A stretch of 64,000 nucleotides of DNA. Origin: Metallumcola ferriviriculae (GTDB lineage Bacteria; Bacillota; JADQBR01). The stretch's first letter is position 1, and every line of letters begins with the position of its first letter. The stretch covers positions 162,501-226,500 of the forward strand of contig NZ_CP121694.1 in NCBI RefSeq assembly GCF_035573695.1, in the 5' to 3' direction. Both the position numbers and the translations under genes were made by a program. Below the pieces are notes generated by a model. That model was not told where the DNA came from. It saw only the letters and a program-made list of their open reading frames with translations, and ran no database searches. Shown in pieces: positions 13,063-40,804 of the stretch.

Positions 13063-13170
13063 CTATTCCCTCCGTCCCGGTCCCATAGGCTCCAAGCGGC
13101 AATCATGTCGATATTCTTTTATCAGGGATACATCGTGTAAACAGTACGGTACGACATAAATCGTTACCAT
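13063..13170 (-). CDS. Possible 35-aa small ORF after folK
   Basis: A minus-strand ATG at 13170 opens 35 codons (begins MVTIYVVPYCLHDVSL, contains EYRHDCRLEPMG) and ends with TAG at 13063. It starts 7 bp after the folK stop, consistent with coupling, and its cysteine/histidine-containing sequence looks less random than the surrounding frames. No clear Shine-Dalgarno site is visible and I recognise no family, so it may be noise. Confidence 0.25.
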   Translation of the reverse strand: MVTIYVVPYCLHDVSLIKEYRHDCRLEPMGPGRRE

Positions 13171-13176
13171 CTGCCA

Positions 13177-34678: not shown

Positions 34679-36451
34679 ATGTATGTAAAGAAAAGTATCA
34701 GTAATGGTAAGGTCTATTTGTCTTTTGTCCAAGGTTATAGACAGAATGGAAAGGTAAAACAAAAAACAGTTGAGAAACTTGGCTATCTTGAAGATCTGGA
34801 AAAGGAATATCCTGATCCTATTGCACATTTCAAGCGGGTTGCAAAGGAACGTACCAAGAACGAAGTTCCGCAAAAAAAACTAGAACTTGACCTGTTAGCT
34901 AAGCTTCCGGATCAAGCAGCATTGCGCAAAAATCTTGGTTATACTGTGCCAAAATCAGTATACTCTCTACTTGGTCTTAGAGAATATTTCCAGAACAAGC
35001 AAAGGCATTTAATCGTAGATTATAACCTAAACAGCATATTCAGTCTGCTCATTTTCAACCGCTTTTTATTTCCTTCATCAAAAAGACACGCCTTTGAAAC
35101 CAAGGATTATTTCTTTGAATCCTTTGACTTTTCACTGGCTGACATTTACCGTGCTCTGGATTACTTTGCCGGATATTCAAATGAGATCCAACGGCATCTC
35201 CATAGTAGAATATCGGAACTTATAGCAAGAGATAACCAGCTTGGATATTATGATGTCACCAACTACTACTTCGAGATCCCTTATGAGGATGAAGATGAAT
35301 ACGATGAAGACGGGAATATGATTAAAAAGGGTCAAAAAAAACGTGGCCCATCTAAAGAGCACCGTAAAGATCCCATCATTCAAATGGGACTCCTGATGGA
35401 TACTAATGGAATCCCCATGGCCTTCAATACTTTTTCTGGTGGCGAAAGTGAAAAACTCTCTCTACTTCCAACAATTCGCCGTGTAAAGAGAGATTTCGCC
35501 TTGGAACGTATTATCGTTGTAGCAGACAGGGGGCTTAACACTAGTGATAATACCACTTTTCTTTCGGGAAAGAACCATGATGACATGGCAGGTAATGACG
35601 GCTATGTTTATGGACAGAGTGTTCTCGGTGCTGACAAAGAATTTAAAGAATGGGTATTAAATCAGGAAGATTATTTAATAGACAAAGAAGAAGATAAGGA
35701 TGGAAATACCGTCTTTTTTAAGCACAAATTCCGCATTCATGCAAAGAAAATACAGTTAAAGGGAACAGATGGCAAGCGTGCCCAAAAGATGGAAATATTT
35801 CAGAAACAGATGGTCTACTATTCCGATAAATACGCCAAAAAACAGAAAAAAGACAGAGATAAGGCTATTGCGAAGGCAAAGGAACTGATTGCCAAACCCG
35901 GAAAATATACAAGAGCTACCAGCATTGGAGCTGCCGGCTATGTAAGCAATATCAAATTCTTAAAACAAACAGGTGAAATACCTGACGGGCTTGTTCTTTC
36001 CCTGAATGAAGCAAGAATTCAGAAGGAAGAAAAATATGATGGATACTATTCCATTGTTACCAGTGAAAAGCATTTATCAGATAGAGAAATTCGTGATATT
36101 TACAAGGGACTTTGGGAAATCGAAGAATCCTTTAAAGTAATCAAGAGTGAATTCAAGGCGAGACCTGTATATGTAAAAAAAGATGCACATGTAGAAGCAC
36201 ATTTTCTGGTATGTTTTGTAGCACTCGTAATCATGCGGGTTCTTGAACAGATGCTAGAGAAAAAACATACTGTGAAGCAGATTCGCAATTCTTTGATTAG
36301 CTATTCCTGCTCCTATTTGGAACAAAACTATTACCTGTTTGATTATCGAGATGATGTAATAGAATCCATTGAGTCTGTCTTTGGCTTTGACTTAAGTAAA
36401 AAGATTATGTCTCAGGCAGCGATCAAAAAAATTTTGCAATACAAAAAATAA
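34679..36451 (+). CDS. IS1634 family transposase
   Basis: A 590-aa DDE transposase that cuts and rejoins the insertion sequence ends. Catalytic acids can be placed at Asp192 (GYYDVTNYYFE), Asp283 (VVADRGLNT) and a Glu in the YKGLWEIEESFKVIK segment (about 480-483), which is the IS4-type YREK region. The N-terminus MYVKKSISNGKVYLSFVQ is typical for the family. A highly acidic stretch (EDEDEYDEDG) lies near 203. The gene is intact and full length. Ribosome site AGAGGTG precedes the ATG. Confidence 0.95.
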   Translation: MYVKKSISNGKVYLSFVQGYRQNGKVKQKTVEKLGYLEDLEKEYPDPIAHFKRVAKERTKNEVPQKKLELDLLAKLPDQAALRKNLGYTVPKSVYSLLGLREYFQNKQRHLIVDYNLNSIFSLLIFNRFLFPSSKRHAFETKDYFFESFDFSLADIYRALDYFAGYSNEIQRHLHSRISELIARDNQLGYYDVTNYYFEIPYEDEDEYDEDGNMIKKGQKKRGPSKEHRKDPIIQMGLLMDTNGIPMAFNTFSGGESEKLSLLPTIRRVKRDFALERIIVVADRGLNTSDNTTFLSGKNHDDMAGNDGYVYGQSVLGADKEFKEWVLNQEDYLIDKEEDKDGNTVFFKHKFRIHAKKIQLKGTDGKRAQKMEIFQKQMVYYSDKYAKKQKKDRDKAIAKAKELIAKPGKYTRATSIGAAGYVSNIKFLKQTGEIPDGLVLSLNEARIQKEEKYDGYYSIVTSEKHLSDREIRDIYKGLWEIEESFKVIKSEFKARPVYVKKDAHVEAHFLVCFVALVIMRVLEQMLEKKHTVKQIRNSLISYSCSYLEQNYYLFDYRDDVIESIESVFGFDLSKKIMSQAAIKKILQYKK

Positions 36452-37515: not shown

Positions 37516-38238
37516 TTATAAGATTTGACTTAAGAACGCCTGGGTCCGTTCATTCTTTGGTGCTGAAAAAATATCGTCCGGTTTCCCCTGCTCAACAATT
37601 TTCCCATCGTCCATATAAATTACGCGATCCGCCGCTTCCTTTGCGAACCACATTTCATGGGTGACTACCACCATAGTCATCCCCTCTTTTGCCAAGTGCT
37701 CCATCACCACCAACACCTCTCCCACAAGTTCAGGGTCCAGTGCCGAAGTAGGTTCGTCAAAAAGCATAACCTTGGGCTGCATAGCCAGCGCCCTGGCAAT
37801 TGCCACCCTCTGTTTCTGTCCACCGGAAAGCATGGCAGGGTAAGTATCCAGTTTATCAGATAGACCTACTTTCTCAAGCAGGTCTTTTCCCAGCTCGGTT
37901 GCCTGACCCTTTGGCATCCCTTTTACCTGAGTCGGCCCTTCAATTACATTTTGAAGCACGGTCATATGCGGGAAAAGATTGAAGTGTTGAAAAACCATAC
38001 CGACCTCTTGACGCAATCGGTTTACCACTTTAGGCTGGGATATCATTTTCTCACCGTCTATATAGATATCCCCCTTCTGTGCCTTCTCTAAAAAGTTTAT
38101 ACAGCGGAGAAGCGTGCTTTTCCCCGAACCACTGGCTCCGATGATCACCACTACTTCTCTCTCTTTGATTTCCAAGTCAATCCCCTTGAGGACATGCAGG
38201 TTACCAAACCACTTATTTACTCCTTCAATTTTTATCAA
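37516..38238 (-). CDS. Polar amino acid ABC transporter, ATP-binding protein
   Basis: A 240-aa GlnQ-type ATPase that powers amino-acid uptake. Walker [10 protein letters not shown] is at 34-42, the signature [15 protein letters not shown] near 137-151, Walker [13 protein letters not shown] and the H-loop VVTHEMWFA follow. TTG start at 38238 with GGGGG upstream. Third gene of a substrate-binding protein / permease / ATPase operon. Specificity (for example glutamine, cystine or arginine) cannot be told from this subunit. Confidence 0.95.
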
Positions 38239-38260: not shown

Positions 38261-38935
38261 TTAATCCTGGTATTCGCTTACTTTAAGGCGATTCTCTATT
38301 TTATTAACGATAATAGTCAATGTGGTAGTCATTAGTAAGTACCAAATGGCTACTGTAACCAGCATCTCCATGTAAAGGAATGTTGACGACCCTATCTGCC
38401 TGGCCTTTAATATTAATTCCGGCACGGCTATGGTGCTAGCCAAAGAAGAATCCTTCGTAGCGATAATAAACTGATTACCCAAAGGAGGGATTGCTCTTTT
38501 AAAGGCCTGAGGTAGAATAATACGCCGCATTGCCTTCGCCTGGGTCATTCCTAAAGAGCGTGCTGCTTCCATTTGACCCCGGTCAATGGATTGAATCGCT
38601 CCGCGCAGGATTTCTGCAAGATAAGCACCATTATGTATACCCAATGCAATAAAGGCGGAAGGTATTTCTGGTATTCGTATAACGCTTGCTAAACCGTAAT
38701 AGATAACGAATAACTGGAGCAGCAATGGTGTCCCTCTAATTATATAAATGTAAGATGCGGCCGGAACATTAAAAATTTTCAACCGTGAGATTTTCGCAAA
38801 AGCTACTATTAGTCCAATTATAAAACCCACTAATATCCCTAAAGTAGTAATTTCCAAAGTCATTAAGGCAGCATCTTTGAAAAAAAGAAATTTCCCGGGA
38901 ACGACGGAAAAATCATATGGCAAGTTCCAATTCAA
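38261..38935 (-). CDS. Polar amino acid ABC transporter, permease
   Basis: A His/Glu/Gln/Arg/opine-type permease of about 224 aa with about five membrane segments and the EAA-like loop [35 protein letters not shown] is the family N-terminal signature. The start is ambiguous: the GTG at 38944 touches its ribosome site, so the TTG three codons later (38935, AGGAG about eight bases upstream) is preferred. Middle gene of the operon. Confidence 0.92.
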
Positions 38936-39050
38936 GTCGTTCACTCCTCTGGCTTTTTTTGGGAAAAAGAATAAAAAATTAGATTATGCATAGCGCCGAA
39001 GCACTATGCACAATCAAGCATAGTAAACTTAATCCCTGTTGTTTGTCAGG

Positions 39051-39890
39051 TTACTGTTTAGTAATATCTTCACCATCAAACCACTTAGCACTGATCTCAG
39101 TTAAAGTACCGTCTTGATGCATTTCTTCTAATATTGCATCCACTTTTTCTCTTAATTCATCGTCATCACTATGGAATGCAATACCCATGGTCTCTTGGCG
39201 TAAAAGCTTACCAGCTAACGTAAGTCGGTCACCGTTTTTAATCTCCTTAATAGCGTTTAATCCTACCACCCGGTCAGTAATCACGCCAGCAAGTCGGCCA
39301 TTTTGGAGCTCCATCAAAGTCTGGAAATCATCTTCGTAGGTCCGAGCTTGAGCCCCTAGCTTTTCCACATCATCAGCAAAGGTCGTTCCGGTAGCCACAC
39401 CAATTACAGATTCTGCCGTCAAATCATCAGGGGTTTTAATGTCAGAATCCTTCATGACTATTAACTGGGCGCCAGAATAGTAATAAGGAATGGAAAAGTC
39501 TACTTGCTTTTCCCTATCTTCAGTAATTGCCATACTACCTAATATCCCATCATATCTTTTTGCTCTTAACCCTTCAATAATTCCGTCCCAAGCAGTAGTT
39601 ACATACTTCATATCCATCCCTAACCTTGTGGCTATTTCATTGGCCACGTCCACATCAAAACCAACCACTTCATCTTTCTCGTTGACGAAGTTAAAGGGCG
39701 GATATCCGCCGGATCCGGCAAAACTAATTACCTCTTTTTCCGGTTTCGCTTCCTCTTTGGGCTGCTCCTTTTCTGCCTGTTCCTTATCCGGCCCTGCACC
39801 ATTATCCGTCTGGCTGCTGCATCCAACTACTGCCGCTAAGCTTAATATCATCAAGCTAATCAGCAAATACATGCTAAGTTTTTTAAACAT
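39051..39890 (-). CDS. Polar amino acid ABC transporter, substrate-binding lipoprotein
   Basis: A 279-aa family 3 solute-binding protein. The signal peptide ends at a lipobox (AAVVGCSS), giving a lipid-anchored Cys24, followed by a charged linker rich in Glu and Lys. GYPPFNFVNEKDEVVGFDVDVANEIATRLG (family 3 signature; key part GFDVDVANEI) and a later ATGTTFADDVEKLGAQ are typical. First gene of the operon, behind a 370-nt structured leader with a terminator. Probably imports a polar or cysteine-related amino acid. Confidence 0.92.
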   Translation of the reverse strand: MFKKLSMYLLISLMILSLAAVVGCSSQTDNGAGPDKEQAEKEQPKEEAKPEKEVISFAGSGGYPPFNFVNEKDEVVGFDVDVANEIATRLGMDMKYVTTAWDGIIEGLRAKRYDGILGSMAITEDREKQVDFSIPYYYSGAQLIVMKDSDIKTPDDLTAESVIGVATGTTFADDVEKLGAQARTYEDDFQTLMELQNGRLAGVITDRVVGLNAIKEIKNGDRLTLAGKLLRQETMGIAFHSDDDELREKVDAILEEMHQDGTLTEISAKWFDGEDITKQ

Positions 39891-39994
39891 TTATATCTCC
39901 ACTCCCTTTTCTTAATGTTTATGTTAGTTAAACCCTTGTCCAACTGCTTCACGCTACCCCCCTGCTAGCGCATCCCTCCTTTTTTTGATATAAA

Positions 39995-40047
39995 AAATCC
40001 AGGCACAATAACCCTCTACTAAGTAGAGAGTTAGAGTACCTGGATTT
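39995..40047 (-). terminator. Leader terminator before the ABC transporter
   Basis: A long stem on the minus strand, AAATCCAGG..TAACTCTCTACT / AGTAGAGGGTTA..CCTGGATTT, followed by a U-tract. It lies in the mRNA leader, about 105 nt before the binding-protein start, so it can act as an attenuator. Confidence 0.85.
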
Positions 40048-40262
40048 CGCCAAAACGACTCATCCTAAACCATGTTTAAACATAGTCTATTCCTGGCCCA
40101 CATGACCCAGAAAAGATCCCAGCTCCCATTGTGTTTTTCAGCTTCCGGTTTCCCCGTAAGTCAAAGGGACACTTACAATTATCCGCCTGAGGTAAGGCAT
40201 ACAACTGCTCGTGCCTGCGAATACTCCCGGACCCTACTTCACAATAATTTCCCTCAATTTTC
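40048..40262 (-). ncRNA. Structured leader RNA of unknown class (candidate riboswitch)
   Basis: About 215 nt between a consensus promoter and a terminator. Local hairpins: GGCA-N12-TGCC, GTAAGT-N9-ACTTAC and CTGGG..GCCAG. Upstream segments TTCGC and GAGTA are complementary to GCGAA and TACTC in the terminator's 5' arm, so an alternative antiterminator is possible. It lacks T-box (TGGNACCGCG), SAM-I, lysine (GCCGAAG), glycine and cobalamin signatures. A 6S-like RNA was considered but not supported. The class is unknown; the amino-acid transporter downstream suggests amino-acid sensing. Confidence 0.5.
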
Positions 40263-40269
40263 CATATGA

Positions 40270-40298
40270 ATTATATAATAAATATCAGTTAAAGTCAA
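40270..40298 (-). promoter_or_regulatory. Promoter of the leader RNA and ABC transporter
   Basis: On the minus strand TTGACT (40293-40298), 17 nt, TATAAT (40270-40275). Transcription should begin near 40262. The -35 overlaps the yabQ stop region. Confidence 0.85.
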
Positions 40299-40804
40299 GA
40301 TTTTCGTTTTTTCAGAATACGCCATAAACGCTTTGGTACGGTTGCTAATCCTCTTAATAATTTTGTAAATTTTTTAATAATTCCATTAAGTTTGTACAAC
40401 AATAGCGTAAGTAAGCCCAAGGGAATTTTAAGAATTCTTTTTAAGATTTTAAAAGGAAATAAAGCAATGCGCCACGAGGTAAAAATTATCCGTCTGCAGA
40501 TATCAAAAATTTGCAGCCATAGCTTAAAGACGGTACGACTGCCAACAGCGTAATAAACCAGGGCACCCAATCCTATACCCAAAAGAACATATAGACGAAC
40601 CTCACCCCAATTAATTTTTAGCAGCGCAAAATAGCCAATGATAGTAGCCAATACCCAGAAAGTAAAATCCCCAGCGTGTCCAATCCACCGCGGCGGCCTG
40701 AATTCTGCTCGCAGAGCACGGTAAAAATCAAATGCAAATGCTATTGCCAGGCCGATGGCTACAGTCCAAAGAAAATATTGCACCTGGGTGATCACCGAAA
40801 CCAC
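40295..40804 (-). CDS. yabQ: Spore cortex biosynthesis protein YabQ
   Basis: A 169-aa membrane protein needed for the spore cortex in B. subtilis. Four or five hydrophobic segments are seen (FLWTVAIGLAIAFAFDF, FTFWVLATIIGYFALL, YVLLGIGLGALVYYAVG and two in the second half), and the C-terminus is very basic (LWRILKKRKS). GTG start behind GGGAGG. It is 38 bp after yabP and transcribed with it from a sigma-E-type promoter. Order yabP-yabQ is conserved. Confidence 0.9.
   Translation of the reverse strand: MVSVITQVQYFLWTVAIGLAIAFAFDFYRALRAEFRPPRWIGHAGDFTFWVLATIIGYFALLKINWGEVRLYVLLGIGLGALVYYAVGSRTVFKLWLQIFDICRRIIFTSWRIALFPFKILKRILKIPLGLLTLLLYKLNGIIKKFTKLLRGLATVPKRLWRILKKRKS

Follow-up and report, generated by a model that had tools for sequence, protein, structure and literature searches.

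A large unclassified leader RNA family upstream of osmoprotectant genes in Bacillota, a candidate riboswitch for an osmotic-stress signal

Several structured RNAs have been described ahead of genes for osmotic and ion homeostasis. The Na+-I riboswitch (DUF1646 motif) controls osmoprotectant genes including ablA, owing to the role of N-epsilon-acetyl-beta-lysine as a compatible solute, and Na+ promotes the read-through of an intrinsic terminator (PMC9337991). The c-di-AMP (ydaO) riboswitch, RF00379, in turn is reported to switch OFF with its ligand and can share an ablA leader with the Na+ riboswitch (PMC9337991). Besides, two orphan riboswitch candidates are the opuB motif, found mostly in Enterobacteriaceae, and the proX motif, found mostly in Spiribacter, for both of which an action at the ribosome-binding site was suggested (PMC11109978, PMC8632094). 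Finally, the trpB motif (SRC-39-1), which comprises at least two hairpins and counts more than 900 copies in Firmicutes and Fusobacteria, is located in some cases before trpB but most often before an uncharacterised amino-acid ABC transporter, and carries a terminator with an antiterminator (PMC11109978).

The leader RNA considered here lies on the minus strand of a 64,000-nucleotide stretch of Metallumcola ferriviriculae DNA (hereafter the window), ahead of an amino-acid-type ABC transporter operon. Sequence evidence for its fold, for a strand claimed by two mutually exclusive structures, for a terminator and a promoter, and for an association with osmoprotectant genes places this leader in a large unclassified family of cis-regulatory RNAs found before such genes in many Bacillota. 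The reading favoured here, with some reserve, is that of an unclassified ON-type riboswitch candidate, which would respond to an osmotic-stress signal and control operons for osmoprotectant uptake or synthesis by transcription attenuation. With the Na+-I riboswitch, the leader RNA has in common the osmoprotectant genes, ablA among them, and the intrinsic terminator, but the Na+-I model (RF03071), which gave no match in the leader, counts 55 positions whereas the leader RNA is about four times longer and differently folded. With the c-di-AMP riboswitch, it shares the link to osmotic and ion homeostasis genes, the control through a terminator, and the presence in the same genomes. The opuB and proX candidates likewise precede compatible-solute transporters, but their host range and regulatory mode are different, a distinction drawn from their published descriptions. 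As for the trpB motif, the likeness concerns the Firmicutes hosts, the amino-acid ABC transporter genes and the terminator/antiterminator arrangement, whereas about nine helices and osmoprotectant genes would seem to set the leader RNA apart, as judged from the text description of that motif. Text searches of open-licence papers returned no description of the leader RNA.

The features of the locus are collected in Table 1. The main elements pointed out in the initial annotation are all present: the consensus promoter, with 17 nucleotides between its two hexamers; a structured leader, whose 279 nt are much more stably folded than their dinucleotide-shuffled versions (z = -5.6, 0/200 shuffles as good); and, ahead of the binding-protein gene, a long terminator, in which a 26-nt inverted repeat (39995-40047) precedes a run of T's, although this terminator was absent from the list of a simple terminator scan. 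The gene on the 5' side of the leader (40295-40804, minus strand) codes for the sporulation cortex protein YabQ (PF09578), and a YabQ-like gene occupies the same position relative to the leader in the relative L009.

Table 1. Features of the leader locus and of the downstream operon (window coordinates)
Feature	Position	Strand	Support or remark
Promoter, sigma-70-type, TTGACT-17-TATAAT	40298-40270	minus	11/12 consensus matches
Conserved part of leader	40025-40242	minus	
5' domain, GUGAAGUA ... GAAAAA; long arm with stems P1-P4 and conserved purine-rich internal loops	40135-40242	minus	model R2
Internal loop UGAAGUA, highly conserved, facing GAAAAA at 40134-40139	40235-40241	minus	
P1, 5' strand (partner 40142-40148)	40227-40233	minus	7/7 pairs covary in 29 homologues; 5/7 able to form in the Metallumcola leader (direct reading)
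3' domain, antiterminator stem around hairpins A, B and C	40025-40144	minus	model R1
Antiterminator 5' strand, GGGAGCUGGGAUCU	40114-40127	minus	covarying helices 1 and 2 of alignment A4
Hairpin A, CUGGGUCAUGUGGGCCAGGAA	40090-40110	minus	A4 helix 3, 9/11 pairs covary
Hairpin B, UAGACUAUGUUUAAACAUGGUUUA	40066-40089	minus	A4 helix 4, 8/8 pairs covary
Hairpin C, GGAU-GA-GUC(N)GGC-GAA-AUCC	40042-40065	minus	A4 helices 5 and 6
AGGUACUCUAACUCUC, antiterminator 3' strand and part of terminator 5' arm	40026-40041	minus	
Intrinsic terminator, hairpin 39995-40047 and U tract	39990-40047	minus	-33.0 kcal/mol
Family-3 solute-binding protein, amino-acid type	39051-39890	minus	PF00497, E = 4.7e-43
ABC permease	38261-38944	minus	PF00528
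GlnQ/TcyN-type ABC ATPase	37516-38238	minus	PF00005

When confined to genomes of the same class, or of the order and family inside it, BLAST returned a single homologue, since this class is made of 3 genomes only. Extended to 398 genomes across the phylum, it brought to light a core, GGUUUAGGGUGAGUC-N-GGCGAAACCCGGGYACUCUAACUCUC, that is conserved between Bacillota families not related to one another. The 126 positions on the 3' side were then made into a covariance model (R1), which recovered 35 copies in 30 of the 398 genomes, 34 of them with E values between 6e-27 and 2.6e-11 (about 3e-11) and one, L069, with a weak value of 5.5e-6. The latter copy (L069:1035-1157, 35.9 bits) has the terminator and the core strand without a match to the 5' domain, stands upstream of genes for a phosphoribosyltransferase and an ATP-grasp-like protein, and is either degenerate or a false positive. 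Over 84,980 species, the core pattern occurs at 29 loci, all from Bacillota judging by the titles of the records, apart from one titled Lutibacter that is probably misnamed; the hosts include Thermincola, Dethiobacter, Fusibacter paucivorans, F. ferrireducens, Tepidibacillus and Syntrophomonadaceae, among others. Whole-genome search of 17 of these carriers added six copies, which together with the 52 distinct rows of alignment A4 give the 58 distinct copies considered below.

A second covariance model (R2), built from the 5' half only and separately from R1, gave 32 matches in this set of 398 genomes, all of them immediately 5' of an R1 match, which indicates that the two halves form one RNA of about 210-275 nt. 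R2 also finds the Metallumcola copy (E = 7.4e-13 on that genome) and detects 20 loci in a set of 22, of which 21 have sequences that did not serve in exactly that form for building it. A riboswitch candidate missing from Rfam and yet carried by about 7.5% of the sampled Bacillota genomes is uncommon.

The initial annotation had made its proposal of an unclassified RNA depend on an empty Rfam scan and on covariation among homologues, and both were found. No family of Rfam 15 matched the leader when the window was scanned at gathering score, the Metallumcola leader had no credible match at E <= 10, and no match rose above threshold in the homologous leaders (seven scanned at E <= 2 and 20 at gathering score), nor did any of these leaders have a known riboswitch in tandem. 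A match to bglG-cis-reg (29.8 bits, the cut-off being 80) was rejected, as were microRNA and plastid matches far below their cut-offs, all of them being located on the terminator hairpin. Elsewhere in the window, the Rfam 'pan' motif, which is the usual leader of pantothenate genes, was recognised at 13068-13173 on the minus strand (RF01749, 47.4 bits), and a transposase-like ORF of 590 aa at 34679-36451 on the plus strand is, by eye, probably an insertion element.

Regarding covariation, 95.5% of cells in the 3' half are paired in A4 (52 distinct sequences), against 32-51% with slid partners, and compensatory changes affect 31 of the 37 pairs, against a shuffled mean of 18.2; none of 500 shuffles reached any of the five measures, these values carrying some bias in favour of the model to which A4 was fitted. 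The first MAFFT alignment, which comprised 13 sequences, already showed changes on both sides in 18 of the same 37 pairs. The closing stem of this half, formed by GGGAGCUGGGAUCU and AGGUACUCUAACUCUC, is the antiterminator. In the 5' half, laid out as GUGAAGUA-[P1]-AGUA-[P2..P4]-GAAA-[P1']-GAAAAA, 24 of 26 pairs covary in a MAFFT alignment of 29 sequences, in which 91% of cells are paired, compared with 35-41% when partners are slid; shuffled controls stayed far lower here as well. The leader is thus a conserved and structured 5' RNA with covariation in both halves. A mutual-information scan for contacts between the two domains led to only one additional helix being kept, P0, whose three pairs are present in 46, 45 and 33 of the 50 sequences, where shuffles gave at most 43, 36 and 31; the strongest new cross-domain pairs were discarded, their columns being present in both overlapping alignments. 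The UGAAGUA/GAAAAA loop, enclosed between P1 and this short outer helix (2-3 bp), is a candidate binding pocket.

In hairpin C, a conserved GA/GAA internal loop is flanked by two short helices. A hammerhead-like reading of its GAUGA...GAAA was dropped because positions that ought to be invariant are variable (GGUGA, GGCGA) and the covariation of the flanking stem is that of an ordinary helix. Two copies from Fusibacter-type genomes (L157 and L158), both before lysine 2,3-aminomutase, have a different hairpin, GCAAUACACGCGGAAGCGAGGUAUA, in its place, and such variants provide natural material for structure-function work.

The conserved fold and the expression platform exclude each other: each of the 52 distinct copies has a terminator hairpin (-10.8 to -52.3 kcal/mol, with a U tract) that takes its 5' arm from the antiterminator 3' strand, a count that comes from a search aimed at such hairpins, without a shuffled control. 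The kind of switch anticipated in the initial annotation is therefore retained, but not the pairing through which it was drawn, namely that of GCGAA and TACTC in the terminator arm with upstream TTCGC and GAGTA: among 50 homologues, only 5 have a complement to (T/C)ACTC in the 5' domain, and only 1 has a complement to NCGAA there. For 50 copies carrying the two domains, the median gap between the antiterminator fold and the optimum is 2 kcal/mol before the 3' arm of the terminator is made; in the presence of the full terminator, this fold is 19 kcal/mol above the optimum, making OFF the default unless the fold is stabilised. These energies suggest that the terminator would win by default and that read-through would need something to hold the conserved fold. 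In addition, 33 of 50 homologues have a promoter with at least 10/12 matches immediately on their 5' side, where shuffles would give 1.9.

As for the first genes downstream, 55 of the 58 copies fall in four classes, gene families having been assigned by HMM for representatives and by BLAST clustering or reading of translations for the others. Operons for an amino-acid-type binding protein, permease and ATPase (SBP_3 ABC) follow 22 copies, glycine-betaine/proline/choline ABC operons (ProV-OpuA or OpuC type) 17, lysine 2,3-aminomutase (AblA) 13, and BCCT betaine carriers three. AblB belongs to the second-gene cluster of five AblA loci and was confirmed for one representative. The three remaining copies precede a PALP-GNAT fusion, the phosphoribosyltransferase of the weak L069 locus and, for L155, a gene without class. 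Both N-epsilon-acetyl-beta-lysine and betaine rank among the classical compatible solutes, and the company kept by the amino-acid-type ABC operons, the largest single target group, suggests that they too are osmolyte transporters. Genomes of the Thermincola type have one copy before ablA and another before an ABC operon, and G369 has one before ProV and one before an ABC operon; such copies ahead of different osmolyte genes within one genome indicate that the RNA defines a regulon.

According to the proposed mechanism, transcription would begin at the sigma-70 promoter, and the nascent RNA would first form two parts, on the 5' side an arm that carries conserved internal loops and on the 3' side a multi-branched domain closed by the antiterminator, whose stem would hold AGGUACUCUAACUCUC, also required for the terminator 5' arm. 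Without signal, the much stronger terminator would capture this strand and transcription would stop before the transporter genes, whereas a signal associated with osmotic stress would stabilise the conserved fold and allow RNA polymerase to read through. The conservation of the antiterminated fold, together with energy estimates for single strands, argues for this ON sign.

The nature of the signal has to be considered in the light of the gene set. The initial annotation suspected amino-acid sensing, and a riboswitch for an amino acid or osmolyte (lysine, beta-lysine, glutamate or betaine) would suit the 22 copies before amino-acid-type ABC operons and the 13 before lysine 2,3-aminomutase. However, the same RNA also precedes betaine ABC and BCCT transporters (20 copies) besides the genes of N-epsilon-acetyl-beta-lysine synthesis, one ligand acting with one sign would be unsuited both to making one osmolyte and to importing another, and the lysine and glycine riboswitch families gave no match in the leader, all of which makes such a ligand unlikely. 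The long 5' domain followed by an antiterminator is also reminiscent of a T-box, but a T-box-like leader sensing tRNA is barely conceivable given that the T-box model (RF00230) matched neither the leader nor the homologous leaders scanned, while scans of this kind do detect T-boxes at other places in L088 and L079, and that the downstream gene set is not that of one amino acid. The mixed targets (betaine ABC, BCCT, acetyl-beta-lysine synthesis and amino-acid-type ABC) thus favour an osmotic-stress signal over an amino acid; this signal would presumably be a general one such as K+, Na+, another small solute or an osmotic second signal. In a more specific version, the RNA would be an osmosensor that binds K+ directly, or reads intracellular ionic strength, and turns osmoprotectant operons ON; this version is tentative and rather doubtful, and to our knowledge there is no riboswitch with K+ as its regulatory ligand.

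Another view would be that of a second, unrelated class of c-di-AMP riboswitches working as an OFF switch on osmolyte genes. In its favour, known c-di-AMP riboswitches control osmolyte and K+ genes (PMC9337991), in addition to the shared ablA leader mentioned above, and RF00379 is detectable in only 15 of the 30 carriers. Nevertheless, the RF00379 model matched neither the leader at E <= 10 nor the homologous leaders scanned, the position of the antiterminator inside the conserved fold fits an ON switch, and the Metallumcola genome already has two RF00379 riboswitches, so that this class appears quite improbable. A further explanation is a protein-dependent attenuator, in which an antiterminator- or TRAP-like RNA-binding protein would act on the conserved fold in osmotic stress, the RNA itself being non-sensing. 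Some conserved loops are indeed single-stranded purines, and the covariation tests do not separate a protein from a small-molecule mechanism. Known protein-binding leaders need less than a multi-domain structure of about 215 nt with many conserved non-helical positions, however, and the few loci read contain no cis-encoded regulator beside the leader. A protein is accordingly regarded as an improbable intermediary, albeit one that sequence data leave inseparable from the direct binding of the signal by the RNA, which we infer for the ON-type riboswitch candidate.

The Na+-I riboswitch is present in 1 of 30 carriers and in 11 of 338 genomes of the phylum, which indicates no association with the leader RNA, most carrier organisms being without it. 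RF00379 riboswitches occur in 260 of the 398 genomes, made up of 15 of the 30 carriers and 245 of the 368 other genomes (Fisher p = 0.07), and thus show no positive link. By the tests run, the leader RNA is unrelated to both. The two RF00379 copies of the Metallumcola genome (L135, C1:1930000-1939600) are about 4 kb apart; by eye, one precedes nhaA, coding for a Na+/H+ antiporter, and the other a small ORF of a different operon, followed at some distance by a TrkA-like gene. Both contain a GGGGUGARUC stretch that is similar to hairpin C, probably by chance.

With its length of about 215 nt, its exceptionally strong covariation and an unusually coherent gene set, the leader RNA is a candidate for a direct RNA route from osmotic-stress sensing to osmolyte genes, a long-standing question, and this gene set narrows the search for the ligand to a short list. 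It may also draw attention to less familiar genes: in Fusibacter ferrireducens (L092:6049-7350), the RNA precedes a threonine-synthase-like PLP enzyme fused to a GNAT acetyltransferase, which is possibly an undescribed osmolyte synthase.
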